A stretch of DNA of 64,000 nt, taken from contig JAJZFV010000028.1 of assembly GCA_021805205.1 (NCBI GenBank), positions 1 through 64,000 on the forward strand. The letters are read 5' to 3'. The position numbers were made by a program, and so were the translations under genes. The notes under the pieces are model-generated. The model did not search any database, was not told the DNA's origin, and saw only the letters and a list, made by a program, of their open reading frames with translations. The DNA is from Actinomycetes bacterium. Its GTDB lineage: Bacteria > Actinomycetota > Acidimicrobiia > Acidimicrobiales > Acidimicrobiaceae. Shown piece after piece: positions 545 to 9,241 of the stretch. Every line of letters starts with the position of its first letter. The stretch's first letter is position 1.

Positions 545-2370
<1,826 letters not shown>

Positions 2371-3843: not shown

Positions 3844-5217
3844 GTGAGTGTTATTCGCAAAGAGATCCAGTCTTCCAAGCTGGCGATGACGAATGTATTT
3901 ACGAATAAGGCAATGCGCAGACTCTTCATTGCATTCGCCGGTTCACTTATTGGCGACGGAGTATTTTCGCTGAGTGCAATCGTTTATGCATTTAGAAGCG
4001 GTGGAGCCTCTGCCGTAGGGATATTGGCAATTGTTCGTTACCTCGCCATTGCAACGGCGTCTCCGATTACATCAACCTTTGCAGATCAATATGATCGCAA
4101 AAAGGTTATGGTCGTCTCCGACTTGCTTCGCTTGGTCCTAGTTTCTCTAGCTGCGGTTGTAGTAGCTCTCGACGGTTCAAAGTGGATTGTTTACGCACTC
4201 GTTGTTGCAGTTGGGGTAGCGGGAACAGCTTTTCGTCCGGCTCAGGGTTCAATTCTTCCATTTCTAGCTCGTAGGAGTGACGAGATGTCGGGAGCTAACG
4301 TTGTGGCCAGCACAATCGAAAGCGTAGGATTCTTTGCAGGTCCGGCGCTCGCTGGTTTTTTGCTGGCCTTCGCAAACGTCTCCATCTCGTTTGCGTTTGA
4401 CGCCGCAACTTTTGTTTGGTCTCTTCTTTTCGTAACTTCGATTCGAATGCCTAGGCCAGAGGAGCGATCTGTTGAGTTCGCGGCGCAATTTGATAACGGT
4501 GGTGAATCAGCGGCTATGAAATCGCAGAGTTTCATCTACCGCGCTATTCAGGGATTTCAACTTATAAAGGGTGATAAGGATGTTCGCACTTTGGTGCTCT
4601 TGTATATTTTGCAGTGCATAGTAGCCGGAGCCTCTGCTGTATTTACAGTCGCGATCGCGCTGCAATTGCTCCACATTGGAAGTTCGGGTCTGGGGTTAAT
4701 GGAGTCACTACTTGGCATCGGTGGACTTGTTGGCGGTTTCGTTGCACTGATCCTCGTTGAGCGAGCACACTTAGCAATTGACTTTGCTTTGGGAGTTATC
4801 GTGTGGGCTGCACCTTTGATTTTGATTGCGATATTTCCTAGCCTATTTGCTTCGCTGCTTTCAATGTGGTTAATTGGCCTCGCCAATTCCGTAGTTGATG
4901 TAAACGCGATTACCATTCTTCAGCACATCGTTCCAAATGAGAAACTTGGTCGAGTTTTAGGTGCTCTTGAAGCTGGGACCATCGCCGGAATGGCCGTTGG
5001 ATCGCTGCTAATGACTTTATTTATCCATTGGTTGGGTTTGCGTATTGGACTTGCTGTAATCGGTGGCTCTATCACACTTGCGGTCCTTCCGGGCTTGCCG
5101 ACGATGAAGCGAATTGATAGGACCGCCTTTGTTGAAGGAGTCTTAGAAAGTGCAAGGGGAGGCCACCAAACACATCGCCTCCACCTTCATCATCTTCGCC
5201 GCAGACATCCGCATTGA
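3844..5217 (+). CDS. MFS transporter, EntS/DUF894-like
   Basis: A 457-residue major facilitator with about 12 hydrophobic segments, beginning in the EntS/MFS_3 style (MRRLFIAFAGSLIGDGVFSLS), with the cytosolic loop ADQYDRKKVM of motif A and a long central loop around residues 205-235. The GTG start has GAGGGG just upstream. Export of a small molecule (drug or siderophore) is the family role; the substrate is unknown. The last ~20 residues after VEGVLESA are His/Arg-rich and unlike the family. Related actinobacterial proteins often continue into a cyclic-nucleotide-binding domain here, so this copy may be truncated by a frameshift or rearrangement. Confidence 0.85.
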   Translation: MSVIRKEIQSSKLAMTNVFTNKAMRRLFIAFAGSLIGDGVFSLSAIVYAFRSGGASAVGILAIVRYLAIATASPITSTFADQYDRKKVMVVSDLLRLVLVSLAAVVVALDGSKWIVYALVVAVGVAGTAFRPAQGSILPFLARRSDEMSGANVVASTIESVGFFAGPALAGFLLAFANVSISFAFDAATFVWSLLFVTSIRMPRPEERSVEFAAQFDNGGESAAMKSQSFIYRAIQGFQLIKGDKDVRTLVLLYILQCIVAGASAVFTVAIALQLLHIGSSGLGLMESLLGIGGLVGGFVALILVERAHLAIDFALGVIVWAAPLILIAIFPSLFASLLSMWLIGLANSVVDVNAITILQHIVPNEKLGRVLGALEAGTIAGMAVGSLLMTLFIHWLGLRIGLAVIGGSITLAVLPGLPTMKRIDRTAFVEGVLESARGGHQTHRLHLHHLRRRHPH

Positions 5218-5906
5218 ACTGGAGATGGGAAATTCAATACCCGGGTCTTCGCCGTAGGTCAAAGAGATAACGGTGTGGAAGTTCGGAGTCGCGTGGTTAA
5301 AAGTGAAGGTGCTCGCCGCTGTGAAAAATGTCATAAGTTTATGCGCCATTCTTTTTCATAGCCAACTATTACTTTTATTCCTCTAATCTACTTCTCTCTG
5401 AAGTTTTGCTGAAGAGTTGCAATTCAACTTCATCACTTGGTATGCCTGGTCCACATTTTCAGCACTCCTTAGTTGTATATTTTGTAGGCGTCGCGGTAGA
5501 GAGTGCACTCACTACAAGTGTGGGATATCTCGTCTCTAATCTGTATTTTGCCACGTCCTAATGGTTCTTTACTATTTAAACCTAAAGGTTCAAAGTAATA
5601 TCGCGTCGTAAAGAGGAGTCCTTATTCGTAAATCAAAAGGCAATTGGAGAGTATTTCTAATGGATTAGATAAGTCAAATTATCTCATAAGGCATGGATTT
5701 AAATTTAATATATTATCCTATTTGGAAGTGTTTTTGAGAAAATTGCCTAACTTTTGGTGAATTTCAGAACTTTCTTGTTTCTATTCTGATTTACCTTCGG
5801 ATAAACCGCTACAACGTAACGATTTCTCAGATTTACTATGGCGTTTGAGATAACAAAACTAAAGTGCACTAAATCCCCCTTAGTGCAATTGGAAAAGGAG
5901 GTCGCC
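5218..5906. other. intergenic region upstream of rhodopsin
   Basis: AT-rich stretch holding the presumed rhodopsin promoter. A minus-strand frame at 5143-5349 (68 residues) overlaps the odd tail of the MFS gene, but has no recognisable family. No hairpin terminator was found after the MFS gene. Confidence 0.4.
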
Positions 5907-6695
5907 GTGGAACTCGGCGTAATACTCAGCCAAAACCAATTCAACATCGTTTATAACGTGTTGTCTTTTGGAATAGCGGCAATGCTTGCCGGCTTCATTG
6001 GTTTTATCTTGCTCAGAGACCAATTGAAGGCAAAACACCGTGCAGCTCTTACACTTGGGACGCTCGTAATGGCTATTGCCGACTACCACTACTTTCGAAT
6101 CTTCGAATCGTGGGTATCGGCCTACCACATCAAAGGTGGTCACTATGTTGCGACGGGCATTCCATTCAACGAGGCCTACAGGTACGTTGACTGGTTGCTA
6201 ACCGTTCCACTGCTCTTAGCTGAGCTAATTGCAGTTCTTGAATTAGGAAAAGAGCGATCTAAGGGATTGATTGGCAAGTTGATAGTTGCATCATCTCTGA
6301 TGATTGCGACGGGATATCCAGGACAGATAGCGGGTCTTCACTCTACCTCTAGGACAGTGTGGGCGGCGATCTCTTCGGTATTCTTCTTCTACATCCTCTA
6401 CGTACTGGTCGTCGAGATCAATAAGGTGATGAAGAGCGAAACTGAAGAAGTGAAGAAGCTAATGTTCACGACCCGAGCGCTTTTGATAATGTCCTGGGGT
6501 TTCTATCCAATTGCATACATCCTTCCCTCGCTATTCAGTGGAGCAACCGTGATTGTTGTAACCCAGGTCGGTTACACCGTTGCAGATGTAATTGCGAAGC
6601 CACTTTGGACGTACTTTATCTTCAAGATATCCAAGGCTAAGCAGGACGATGAAGAGCTCTCAGTGGTCTCTGAGAAGACGCTGAAGGTGGCTTAA
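5907..6695 (+). CDS. light-driven proton-pump rhodopsin (XR/actinorhodopsin-like)
   Basis: Seven-helix retinal protein. I start it at GTG 5907, six bases after AAAAGGAGG, giving 262 residues; a longer frame from 5838 lacks a ribosome site. Helix C reads RYVDWLLTVPLLLAE, placing proton acceptor D95, T99 and donor E106 (DTE pattern of outward proton pumps); helix B has H61 where proteorhodopsin has its acceptor-partner His. Helix G has D227 and Schiff-base lysine K231. L103 sits at the green/blue tuning site, predicting green absorption. GYPGQ in helix D and SWGFYPIAY in helix F resemble the xanthorhodopsin/actinorhodopsin branch. In helix E, A153 aligns with bacteriorhodopsin W138. It would sit in the cytoplasmic membrane; the retinal-making gene follows after one base. 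Confidence 0.95.
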   Translation: MELGVILSQNQFNIVYNVLSFGIAAMLAGFIGFILLRDQLKAKHRAALTLGTLVMAIADYHYFRIFESWVSAYHIKGGHYVATGIPFNEAYRYVDWLLTVPLLLAELIAVLELGKERSKGLIGKLIVASSLMIATGYPGQIAGLHSTSRTVWAAISSVFFFYILYVLVVEINKVMKSETEEVKKLMFTTRALLIMSWGFYPIAYILPSLFSGATVIVVTQVGYTVADVIAKPLWTYFIFKISKAKQDDEELSVVSEKTLKVA

Positions 6696-6696
6696 A

Positions 6697-7632
6697 GTGC
6701 GCGGGGGAGCGTCTGCGTCTAACAGATTGATTACAGCTGCTCCCCAACGTATCAAGTTGCACTATTTTTCCCAGGCTCGGAATTTGACTCTGAGCTTGGG
6801 AGTAGTTCTTATCTCGATTATATCGCGACTGTTGGCGTCGAATCCATCCCACCATATGCACGATAGAATTGAGCTTATTATCTCAATAGTGCTCATTTCT
6901 TTCGGGTCGATCCATGGATCTTTAGATATATTCAAACTTCGAAATATAAATTATGGAATAATACGCAACAATAAAGCCACTCCGATCGCCGCATATCTTG
7001 CGTTGGTTTTCCTTGGAGCTACGTCTCTTATCTTTAGTCCTCAAATTTCAACGCTACTTTTTATCCTTTTATCGCTGGCGCACTTTTCGATTGTCGAATT
7101 CACAAAGAAGCGTGATGCAACGAATTCCAGATACCGTGTCCTCGGCTCCATTGCAATGGTTTTTGCGGTATTTGCTGTAACTTTTCGTTCGTACTCTTCC
7201 ATCTCTTCAGCGTTTTTGCTAAGGCTGGTTGGCGATGGGCCCTTGGTCACGACTCTGCTGGGCTGGACTAGCTATCTTGCAATTGCTTCTTTTGCGGTCC
7301 TAGTCGTTGTAGCTTTTGTGGCGAGTGGTTCTCTTAGAGATTTTGTCGATGACCTTTCTCTTGTGATAGCACTCATGGTCGCCCCGAGCTTGGTTGCCTT
7401 TGCCCTCTACTATTGCTTTCGTCACGGTGTAGATCAGTGGGTGATGGATCGCGGTGCTACTGACCTTGTTTCGGTGGATACCAGGGTACTTTTGAAAGTT
7501 TTAATGGCAACGGTGGTACTGCTGTTGGCTACCATCTTTATGGTTGGACCACTGATTGCCTTCGTGGCCCTCGGCTTTGGACTAACGCTGGCACACGTTG
7601 CACTTGATTTTGGGTTGAGATTAGGCCTCTAG
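6697..7632 (+). CDS. blh: Brp/Blh-family beta-carotene 15,15'-dioxygenase
   Basis: Integral membrane oxygenase that cleaves beta-carotene to two retinals. The 311-residue, strongly hydrophobic protein has the four His-containing segments expected for iron binding: GSIHGSLD (H73), LAHFSIVE (H129), FRHGVDQ (H243) and LAHVALD (H300). It starts at GTG one base after the rhodopsin stop, with GAAGGTGG upstream, so the two are almost certainly one transcript and translationally coupled. The second motif has HFS..E where HFG..D is more usual. Carotenoid biosynthesis genes are not in this window, so substrate supply must come from elsewhere. Confidence 0.9.
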   Translation: MRGGASASNRLITAAPQRIKLHYFSQARNLTLSLGVVLISIISRLLASNPSHHMHDRIELIISIVLISFGSIHGSLDIFKLRNINYGIIRNNKATPIAAYLALVFLGATSLIFSPQISTLLFILLSLAHFSIVEFTKKRDATNSRYRVLGSIAMVFAVFAVTFRSYSSISSAFLLRLVGDGPLVTTLLGWTSYLAIASFAVLVVVAFVASGSLRDFVDDLSLVIALMVAPSLVAFALYYCFRHGVDQWVMDRGATDLVSVDTRVLLKVLMATVVLLLATIFMVGPLIAFVALGFGLTLAHVALDFGLRLGL

Positions 7633-7882
7633 TACGAAGGCATTTTTGAGATTCGTTCCTTTGAATATCTGAGATTAGCCGCGTATGATTGAAGCAAACT
7701 CTTGCACCGTCGCCCCGATAGTCGCTTTGAATTGGCCCATTAGGGCGGCCGCTTTTCACGTTGAATAAATTGATGATTGCGCCCTATTCAGCTTTGATGC
7801 CACCAAGCAGCCTGTGCAAGTTCGATCTTTTGGTCCCCCGCTTATCCAGAAGGGGAGTCAAAAGCTGCCAAGGGCGCTTTGT

Positions 7883-9241
7883 TTATGACCTTCTACCTCG
7901 AGAGCGTTCTCTTCTAGTATTGCCTCTACTCCGAGGGCTTTGATTACCTTCGGCCGGTTGCTTAGAGGTGGGAAGCGTAACGATTACGTCGGGAATTGAA
8001 GTAACTGGCGCCATCTTGGCTCTTTCCCTCACAGGGCCACCGCCAAGCGATTCTATGTTGGGCTTGGTGATACCCTTCGGCAGCGAAAGCGTACGTTGAA
8101 TCTGTGCTGTTGCGGCCTGGTGCTCGGCTCCAACCAACGAAACTACGGTTCCATCGATACCAGCTCTTCCTGTTCTTCCTGAGCGGTGTACGTAATCTGT
8201 GGCATCGTTTGGTGGGTCAAAGTGTATAACCAGAGGAACCGCATCGACGTGGATACCTCGTGCTGCGATGTCGGTAGCAACTAGCGCGTCGAGGCGTCCT
8301 GCTTGGAAGTCACCGAGTGCCCTTTCACGTTGATTTTGGCTTCTGTTTCCGTGAATCGCGGCGGACGATATACCCGATCGAGCGAGGCGCTCAGAAAGGC
8401 GGTCAGCACCACGCTTTGTTCGACAAAAGACGACCGCTGGACCTATCGCTGAGATTGCCTCTGAGGTGATTGCGATTCGATCATTTCCTTCGACGCTCCA
8501 GAAGTGATGAATTACCTCTGCCTTATCCTCATCGGGGACCTTGACGTCGTGCCTAACGGGGTTTTTTTGATAGTCGCGAATTAATTTGTCGACCGGTCCA
8601 TCGAGCGTCGCTGAAAAGAGAAGAGTTTGACGACTTGAAGAAGTTTTGTCGATTAGACGGCGAACGACGGTTAGGAACCCCATATCAGCCATGCGGTCTG
8701 CCTCGTCTACAACAACTATTGAAACTTGGGATAATTTTGCTACACCTTGCTGAACTAGGTCTGTTAGGCGACCTGGGCAGGCTACGAGGATGTCGACTCC
8801 CTGTTGCAGAGCGTTATTCTGCTTTCCGTAACCTACGCCTCCATAGATCGAAGCTACGTTTAGCCCTAAAGCCTTTGCTAGCGGTTCGATAACCTTTTCT
8901 ATCTGAAGAGCTAATTCCCTCGTCGGCACAAGCACAAGTGCACGTGGTAGTCGGTGCGCTTTGGGTGCAGCAGAAGTCTCGCGATCTAGGCGACTTAGGA
9001 TTGCTAAGCCGAATGCAAGAGTCTTTCCGGACCCAGTTGGTGCCTTTCCGCAGACGTCTCGTCCTGCAATGCTATCGGGCAAAGTGGCTTCTTGAATTGG
9101 AAATGGCGTTGTAAGTCCAAGCCGATCCAGTACAGAGATTAGTTTTGTCGGTACTCCGAGATCGGAGAAGTGTAGGGGCACAGTGATGTCGTTCGAATTG
9201 ATAATGAAACTCCAGTCGGTCCAATATTGCGGCCGACTCAA
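7883..9241 (-). CDS. DEAD-box RNA helicase
   Basis: ATP-dependent RNA helicase of about 450 residues with motifs in order: Q motif (TPFPIQEAT), Walker A GSGKT, PTRELA, DEAD, SAT, ATDIAARGI and HRSGRTGR, then a short basic Arg/Ser/Gly tail typical of RNA-binding extensions. Likely role is RNA remodelling, for instance in ribosome assembly or cold growth. The longest frame starts at TTG 9241 without a clear ribosome site; family members usually begin near the segment VPLHFSDLGV, so GTG at 9181 is a strong alternative start. A different minus-strand frame (9072-9350) overlaps the 5' end. Confidence 0.93.
   Translation of the reverse strand: MSRPQYWTDWSFIINSNDITVPLHFSDLGVPTKLISVLDRLGLTTPFPIQEATLPDSIAGRDVCGKAPTGSGKTLAFGLAILSRLDRETSAAPKAHRLPRALVLVPTRELALQIEKVIEPLAKALGLNVASIYGGVGYGKQNNALQQGVDILVACPGRLTDLVQQGVAKLSQVSIVVVDEADRMADMGFLTVVRRLIDKTSSSRQTLLFSATLDGPVDKLIRDYQKNPVRHDVKVPDEDKAEVIHHFWSVEGNDRIAITSEAISAIGPAVVFCRTKRGADRLSERLARSGISSAAIHGNRSQNQRERALGDFQAGRLDALVATDIAARGIHVDAVPLVIHFDPPNDATDYVHRSGRTGRAGIDGTVVSLVGAEHQAATAQIQRTLSLPKGITKPNIESLGGGPVRERAKMAPVTSIPDVIVTLPTSKQPAEGNQSPRSRGNTRRERSRGRRS

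Follow-up and report, generated by a model that had tools for sequence, protein, structure and literature searches.

The question raised by this locus is whether an opsin gene and the Brp/Blh-family gene directly behind it can together support light-driven proton pumping when the second protein lacks one of the histidines needed in the studied enzyme of its family. The window, by which we mean the whole 64,000-nucleotide stretch that was analysed, belongs to a draft Acidimicrobiaceae genome, G000 (2.62 Mb, 55 contigs, 89% complete). The reading we prefer, with a probability of roughly 0.57 for the whole of it, is that the pair forms a phototrophy cassette in members of the Acidimicrobiaceae that have acidophilic iron oxidisers as relatives; that the opsin would bind retinal and pump protons outward, as its fold and residues suggest; that the crt genes of the genome would supply beta-carotene; and that the divergent Brp/Blh would convert beta-carotene to retinal with a changed metal site, in which Gln (Ser in Ferrithrix) takes the place of one of the four histidines that the studied enzyme needs.

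The opsin of the xanthorhodopsin (XR) clade is encoded on the forward strand at 5907..6695 and has 262 aa counted from a GTG. The open reading frame runs 5838-6695, and GTG 5907 is a better start than the frame's own beginning because a Shine-Dalgarno-like AAAGGAGGT (5894..5902, forward strand) ends 4-5 bases 5' of it. In L006, the 94-95% identical cassette locus of the relative G001, a GTG stands at the place equivalent to 5907, and in the mechanical ORF list the L006 opsin also begins further upstream than that GTG. Pfam PF01036 scores the window opsin at 132.9 bits against a cut-off of 24.6, with no match in NCBIfam, and the PF01036 fold, the seven helices and the Schiff-base Lys are all present. 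The stop codon TAA (6693-6695) is followed by a single base and then by GTG 6697 of the Brp/Blh-family gene.

Directly upstream of the Shine-Dalgarno is a perfect dyad, TGCACTAA and TTAGTGCA separated by 7 nt (5865..5887, forward strand), which is possibly a 5' hairpin or an operator. A hairpin-forming dyad is found 5' of the opsin Shine-Dalgarno in all three cassettes discussed here, at about 4913-4942 in L006, where the place is the same and the sequence is partly changed (one pair changed on both sides, and another loop), and at about 5952-5978 in L007, the Ferrithrix locus, where the sequence is unrelated to that of the window. The folding energies against shuffles give z-scores of -2.71 for L006 and -3.89 for L007; the window dyad, at 0.07, does no better than the shuffles and so is not unusual by energy alone. 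An Rfam scan of 5200-7900 gave no match, and promoter and terminator scans at the cassette gave nothing above chance.

The preliminary description had called the opsin a DTE-type proton pump with D95, T99, E106 and K231, and counted from GTG 5907 these residues are indeed in place, D95 as the counterion and E106 as the donor. All four are invariant in a 22-row alignment, from which L021 (a range with a stop) was dropped and L085 was left out by choice. A larger tally, resting on the best 80 of 248 relatives plus other rows, has 92 rows, 5 of them PDB references, of which 91 are usable, L151 being gapped at every column; D95, T99, E106, H61, R92, D227 and K231 are unchanged in 91/91. Three residues set the window opsin apart in this same set of the best 80 relatives and others. 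D59 is found in 3/91, namely the window, L006 and L007; Q140 is found in 5/91, these three plus two further actinobacterial opsins (L033 and L036) with Gln at the Glu of GYPGE, with Glu in the other 86/91; and A153 is found in 4/91, the same three plus L150, with Gly in 87/91.

The AlphaFold2 model of the opsin has a mean pLDDT of 91.4, and the nearest PDB chain to it is psXR 9wfa with a TM score of 0.95 by target length. The closest solved structures are psXR, GR (6nwd), the R. xylanophilus rhodopsin (5azd), Kin4B8 (7ytb/8i2z) and xanthorhodopsin (3ddl), which share the fold (TM 0.91-0.95 by target), the DTE motif, the H61-D95 pair, and the Schiff-base and counterion residues, although they are only 42-52% identical to the window opsin. 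GR, XR and the R. xylanophilus rhodopsin are proton pumps. Kin4B8 is also described as one in the available text of PMC13093654. The differences from these structures are Ala for the fenestration Gly, Ser for Thr at Kin4B8 157, Gln for the Glu of GYPGE/GYVGE, and an Asp before YHY. The first of these is of interest because passages of PMC13093654 describe the carotenoid window in XR and Kin4B8 as opened by Gly (Gly156 and Gly153, respectively). With Ala153 at that place, binding of a carotenoid antenna by the window opsin is doubtful, despite a CrtZ-like gene in the genome that points to zeaxanthin synthesis; the substitution bears on antenna binding and not on membership in the pump clade.

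Placing the rhodopsin on a tree, a check that the preliminary description had proposed, puts it in the XR clade among actinobacterial XR-like opsins. The tree uses 32 of the 92 rows, and groups the window opsin with L006 and Ferrithrix (support 100/99), with L010 and L011, from two uncultured actinobacteria, as next neighbours at weaker support (81/76), all inside a 12-row actinobacterial XR-like group (100/99) that is apart from the group with the actinorhodopsins of freshwater Nanopelagicales. Those actinorhodopsins are likewise actinobacterial DTE opsins, but the window opsin sits in the separate group with L010/L011. A marine "acidirhodopsin", again an actinobacterial DTE opsin and from the same class, is known from Acidimicrobiia in the accessible part of PMC5962788, and its comparison with the window opsin is by description.

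The Brp/Blh-family gene is at 6697..7632 on the forward strand (311 aa, GTG start), and its position one base after the opsin was correctly described. It passes the Pfam PF15461 cut-off of 28 with 56.3 bits, while NCBIfam TIGR03753 gives it 66.7 bits, under a cut-off of 95.25, which was the first hint that this Blh is divergent. The histidine motifs were examined against a reference of 33 canonical rows, in which the motif histidines are kept as follows: PHG 33, DH 32, HF(W)G 30, WH 30, RH 29 and PH 33. In the window Blh, two G001 alleles and Ferrithrix, the same six positions read His, Ile/Ala, His, His, Gln/Ser and His. H73, D77, H129, H243 and H300 of the window protein are retained in 4/4 divergent Blhs, and the canonical His is replaced in the window by Ile at 78 and by Gln at 247, the latter encoded by CAG at 7435..7437 (forward strand).

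The main point of interest is Gln247. In the marine 66A03 Blh, UniProt Q4PNI0, as summarised in the consulted portion of the review PMC9227343, changing any of His21, 78, 188 and 192 to Ala gives <5% activity. Three of these four required histidines are kept in the window protein (H73, H129 and H243), and the fourth, the catalytic His192, would be Gln247, an assignment made from spacing rather than from an alignment with 66A03: the HxxxH spacing of 4 fits His188/His192, and the distance from PHG to HFG is 56 here and 57 in 66A03 numbering. The position is changed in 4/4 Blhs of the clade, with Ser in Ferrithrix. Both the 66A03 Blh and that of Aquiluna IMCC13023, going by what PMC9227343 and PMC8113403 offer in the text available, share PF15461 and the H73/H129/H243/H300 motifs with the window protein and differ from it, in a comparison by description, in that the window protein lacks a His both at the 192 position and directly after D77. 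The label "retinal-forming oxygenase" thus stands as to family, and a working enzyme is not established by it, there being no equivalent of His192. In the same way the "complete" two-gene cassette of the preliminary description stands as an opsin with an adjacent Blh-family gene, and completeness is its weak point: with the His192 equivalent lost, the two genes may fall short of what such a cassette normally provides.

Two residues shared by the clade are candidates to replace the missing ligand, in a comparison in which L014 had no motif match. Position 251 is Asp in 4/4 clade Blhs, and an ungapped count at His+8 has Asp in 0/35 canonical rows. In a gapped alignment, however, 11/33 canonical rows have Asp there, and the residue is two helical turns away from H243, so that we rejected D251 as a sure replacement ligand and keep it as a candidate. 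K80 is found in 4/4 clade Blhs and 0/33 canonical ones. A fold search with the Blh model (pLDDT 75.4) matched nothing in the PDB at E up to 0.001, and a sequence search of the PDB gave no relative up to E = 1.

Beyond the host family, a survey of the class has a BCD match in 6/395 genomes, the main match keeping HxxxH in 4/4 genomes outside the family (for G213 the motif check covered the main match and not L135, a short second one). The histidine of the DH motif is absent in three other Acidimicrobiia Blhs (L131, L149 and L150), which are opsin-adjacent and keep HxxxH, and we therefore rejected loss of the DH histidine as significant by itself. In Humibacillus, L078 (6624-7895) is an opsin-linked Blh in which Phe replaces the second His of HxxxH. 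A PF15461 paralogue group (L127, L128 and L129) carries Lys, Tyr and Gln in place of three ligands, so that Gln stands at the His192 place and two other ligands are lost as well; a canonical copy is also present in two of the three genomes (G208 and G228), and the group probably has a different function.

The rate of change in the Blh might appear to speak for decay. By a simple count with dS near saturation, three within-genus pairs give the Blh a dN/dS of 0.13-0.26, which speaks for continued selection, and the opsin about 0.02, a tenfold lower value that counts against a working Blh. A control with canonical pairs led us to reject fast evolution as proof of decay, for the Blh is generally far less conserved than the opsin: 20 canonical pairs with opsins 85-97% identical have Blhs 41-69% identical. 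The pair of window and L006, at 92/47 for opsin/Blh, falls within that range. The Ferrithrix pairs (opsin 66-69%, Blh 23-25%) are below 10 canonical pairs of similar opsin identity, for which the Blh is at 32-52%. In the Blh tree, from which L117, L119, L120, L121, L125, L127 and L128 were left out and to which L148-L150 were added, the divergent clade is on a very long stem, which counts against a working enzyme, and at risk of long-branch effects.

In two further genomes of the family, G001 and G018 (Ferrithrix), a homologous opsin gene likewise has a homologous Blh gene as its neighbour, so the pairing is not chance. Both in the window and in G001 the cassette is flanked by an MFS gene on one side and a DEAD-box helicase on the other, and thiC is found on the far side of the MFS gene (the helicase and thiC were identified by eye). 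The Ferrithrix thermotolerans pair has the same gene order, the same D/Q/A opsin substitutions and a change at the same histidine position, but its opsin is 70% and its Blh about 25% identical to those of the window, Ser stands in place of Gln, 102 bases separate the genes, and the neighbours are different, one being smpB-like by eye. G008, of the same genus as the window genome, has the helicase homologue (71%) with no cassette within about 1.5 kb on each side, and no opsin was found in 10/12 genomes of the genus, some of them incomplete. Gain, loss or transfer of the two genes together would each be compatible with this patchy distribution. Two contigs of G001, C20 (L113) and C104 (L089, L152), seem to carry two alleles of the Blh/helicase locus with Blhs about 50% identical, probably from two populations binned together. 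The dS of thiC (window 545-2278 versus L006 2-1261) is about 0.18, and on the same contig the MFS gene and the opsin are near saturation at about 1.4; the low value for thiC would reflect strong codon constraint or recombination.

The carotenoid genes that the preliminary description had asked after (crtE, crtB, crtI and crtY) are represented, the lycopene cyclase being CrtYc/CrtYd and not CrtY. On contig 40 of G000 three genes stand in a row, for a polyprenyl synthase, for a desaturase of the crtI family that scores 424 bits (cut-off 238.1) and for an SQS_PSY protein; a few kilobases on are a CrtZ-like hydroxylase (PF04116, FA_hydroxylase), CrtYd, CrtYc and dxs. The names crtE and crtB come from cluster context, with matches to PF00348 and PF00494 and no equivalog cut-off reached, and the PF04116 hydroxylase we take to be CrtZ from its His motifs. 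CrtYc and CrtYd are both above cut-off in 6 of the 11 genomes tested, a set that takes in each of the four opsin-bearing ones, and the CrtZ-like gene adjoins them in 6/6 (40-100% identity), G001 and Ferrithrix among them. A CrtY-type cyclase was rejected: the PF05834 matches, in 7/11 genomes, are short and low-scoring, barely above cut-off in G002 and G004 and below it in G000. With this gene set present, a genome lacking the beta-carotene pathway, which the preliminary description had named as a refutation, is not what is seen; from its genes, G000 can be predicted to make beta-carotene and probably zeaxanthin.

As for where the retinal comes from, the opsin and the divergent Blh co-occur in exactly the same 3/42 genomes of the family (20/42 being at least 90% complete). 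G000 and G018 have a single BCD hit each, and an RPE65-type enzyme was rejected as the source, the RPE65-family search having no match in G000, G001, G002, G008 and G018. The Blh is the sole recognised retinal-forming candidate in G000 and in Ferrithrix. Another retinal-forming gene could be missing from the assembly of G000, which is 89% complete; Ferrithrix, at 98%, argues against this. A genome of the same order, G058, has an opsin, no BCD hit and five RPE65-family hits, and possibly a different retinal source.

Most likely, judging from these sequences, the divergent Blh would still make retinal with its metal site altered. The main rival is that its function is lost or changed, the protein decaying or having another role (retinal binding or delivery, or carotenoid handling) and the opsin's retinal coming from neighbours or from an unrecognised enzyme. 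We regard this as unlikely on balance, and as a possibility to be taken seriously: the His192 position is changed in all four proteins with the DH histidine lost too, the L127-L129 proteins with Gln there have lost two more ligands and in G208 and G228 stand beside a canonical copy, the Ferrithrix Blhs are more divergent than canonical ones at similar opsin identity, and PMC9296517 proposes that Saccharibacteria source retinal from their hosts. Against it, the reading frames are intact over a large divergence, lie beside the opsin and in the family were found only where the opsin was found too, and the hosts possess the beta-carotene gene set; loss of the DH histidine, shared with L131, L149 and L150, means little alone, and fast Blh evolution is normal, the window pair being inside the canonical range. 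The opposite simplification, that this is an ordinary canonical cassette with neutral substitutions in which only the host is unusual, draws on the Humibacillus Blh, which suggests that the His192 position may tolerate change, and on an opsin whose fold and motifs are otherwise conserved. It is quite improbable when that His is present in 29/33 canonical rows, 3 of the 4 exceptions are the paralogue group, and the mutation data on the marine 66A03 enzyme (PMC9227343, in the text available) are considered.

Two further alternatives concern the opsin and the assembly. That the opsin senses light or moves an ion other than the proton, instead of pumping protons outward, could be argued from the clade-specific D59 and the rare Q140 and A153 (among the best 80 of 248 relatives and others), but the DTE motif, H61, R92, D227 and K231 all match the reference opsins and no transducer-like neighbour is seen by eye in the ORF list of the window, four ORFs of which were scanned against family libraries; we consider this very improbable. 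It is harder still to credit that the cassette came from another organism through assembly or binning, for it sits within 64 kb of sequence, its flanking genes recur in G001 and a homologue is present in the named genome of Ferrithrix, and what speaks for such an artefact is a draft of 55 contigs and the seemingly two alleles in the G001 bin.

The preliminary description inferred an acidophilic iron oxidiser as the host; kinship supports a place in the same family as the extremely acidophilic iron oxidiser Ferrithrix thermotolerans DSM 19514 (G018). PF06525, tried as a marker of iron oxidation, is found in 2/7 genomes, with none in G000 and none in the iron oxidiser Ferrithrix either, and so carries no weight in either direction. 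According to the accessible portion of PMC5962788, extreme acidophily with a pH optimum around 2.0 and the capacity for ferrous iron oxidation are shared by the type species of Acidimicrobium, Acidithrix, Ferrimicrobium and Ferrithrix. The preliminary description found it of biological interest that, in such a host, an outward pump would work against an already steep gradient. This is no paradox as put, because the respiratory chains of acidophiles also pump protons out against a large pH difference. D95, the counterion, is accessible from outside the cell and is protonated in relatives at moderately low pH. The sharper question is whether D95 can remain deprotonated when the outside pH is close to 2, where the pump would stall unless its pKa is very low. 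D59, two residues before H61, and Q140, in place of Glu at the end of helix D, may be candidate acid adaptations. A fuller version of this idea is that the whole system is retooled for acid, with a retinal-forming Blh whose metal site is rebuilt from three His and a substitute (D251 and K80 being candidates) and with D59 and Q140 keeping D95 working near outside pH 2; we hold it tentatively, and would judge it rather unlikely in its entirety.

A search of the open-licence literature, with subscription papers outside its scope, found no rhodopsin report for Ferrithrix, Acidithrix or Ferrimicrobium, and among the papers found only PMC5962788 holds both rhodopsin and Acidithrix in its available text; this silence is weak evidence for the absence of a prior report. 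If the pump works, organisms of extremely acidic waters that receive sunlight could draw energy from light in addition to iron and organic carbon, and Ferrithrix is a named strain among the carriers of the cassette in which this is testable. If the divergent Blh works, the four-histidine requirement of the studied enzyme would not be valid family-wide; if it does not, the retinal of the opsin must come from elsewhere.
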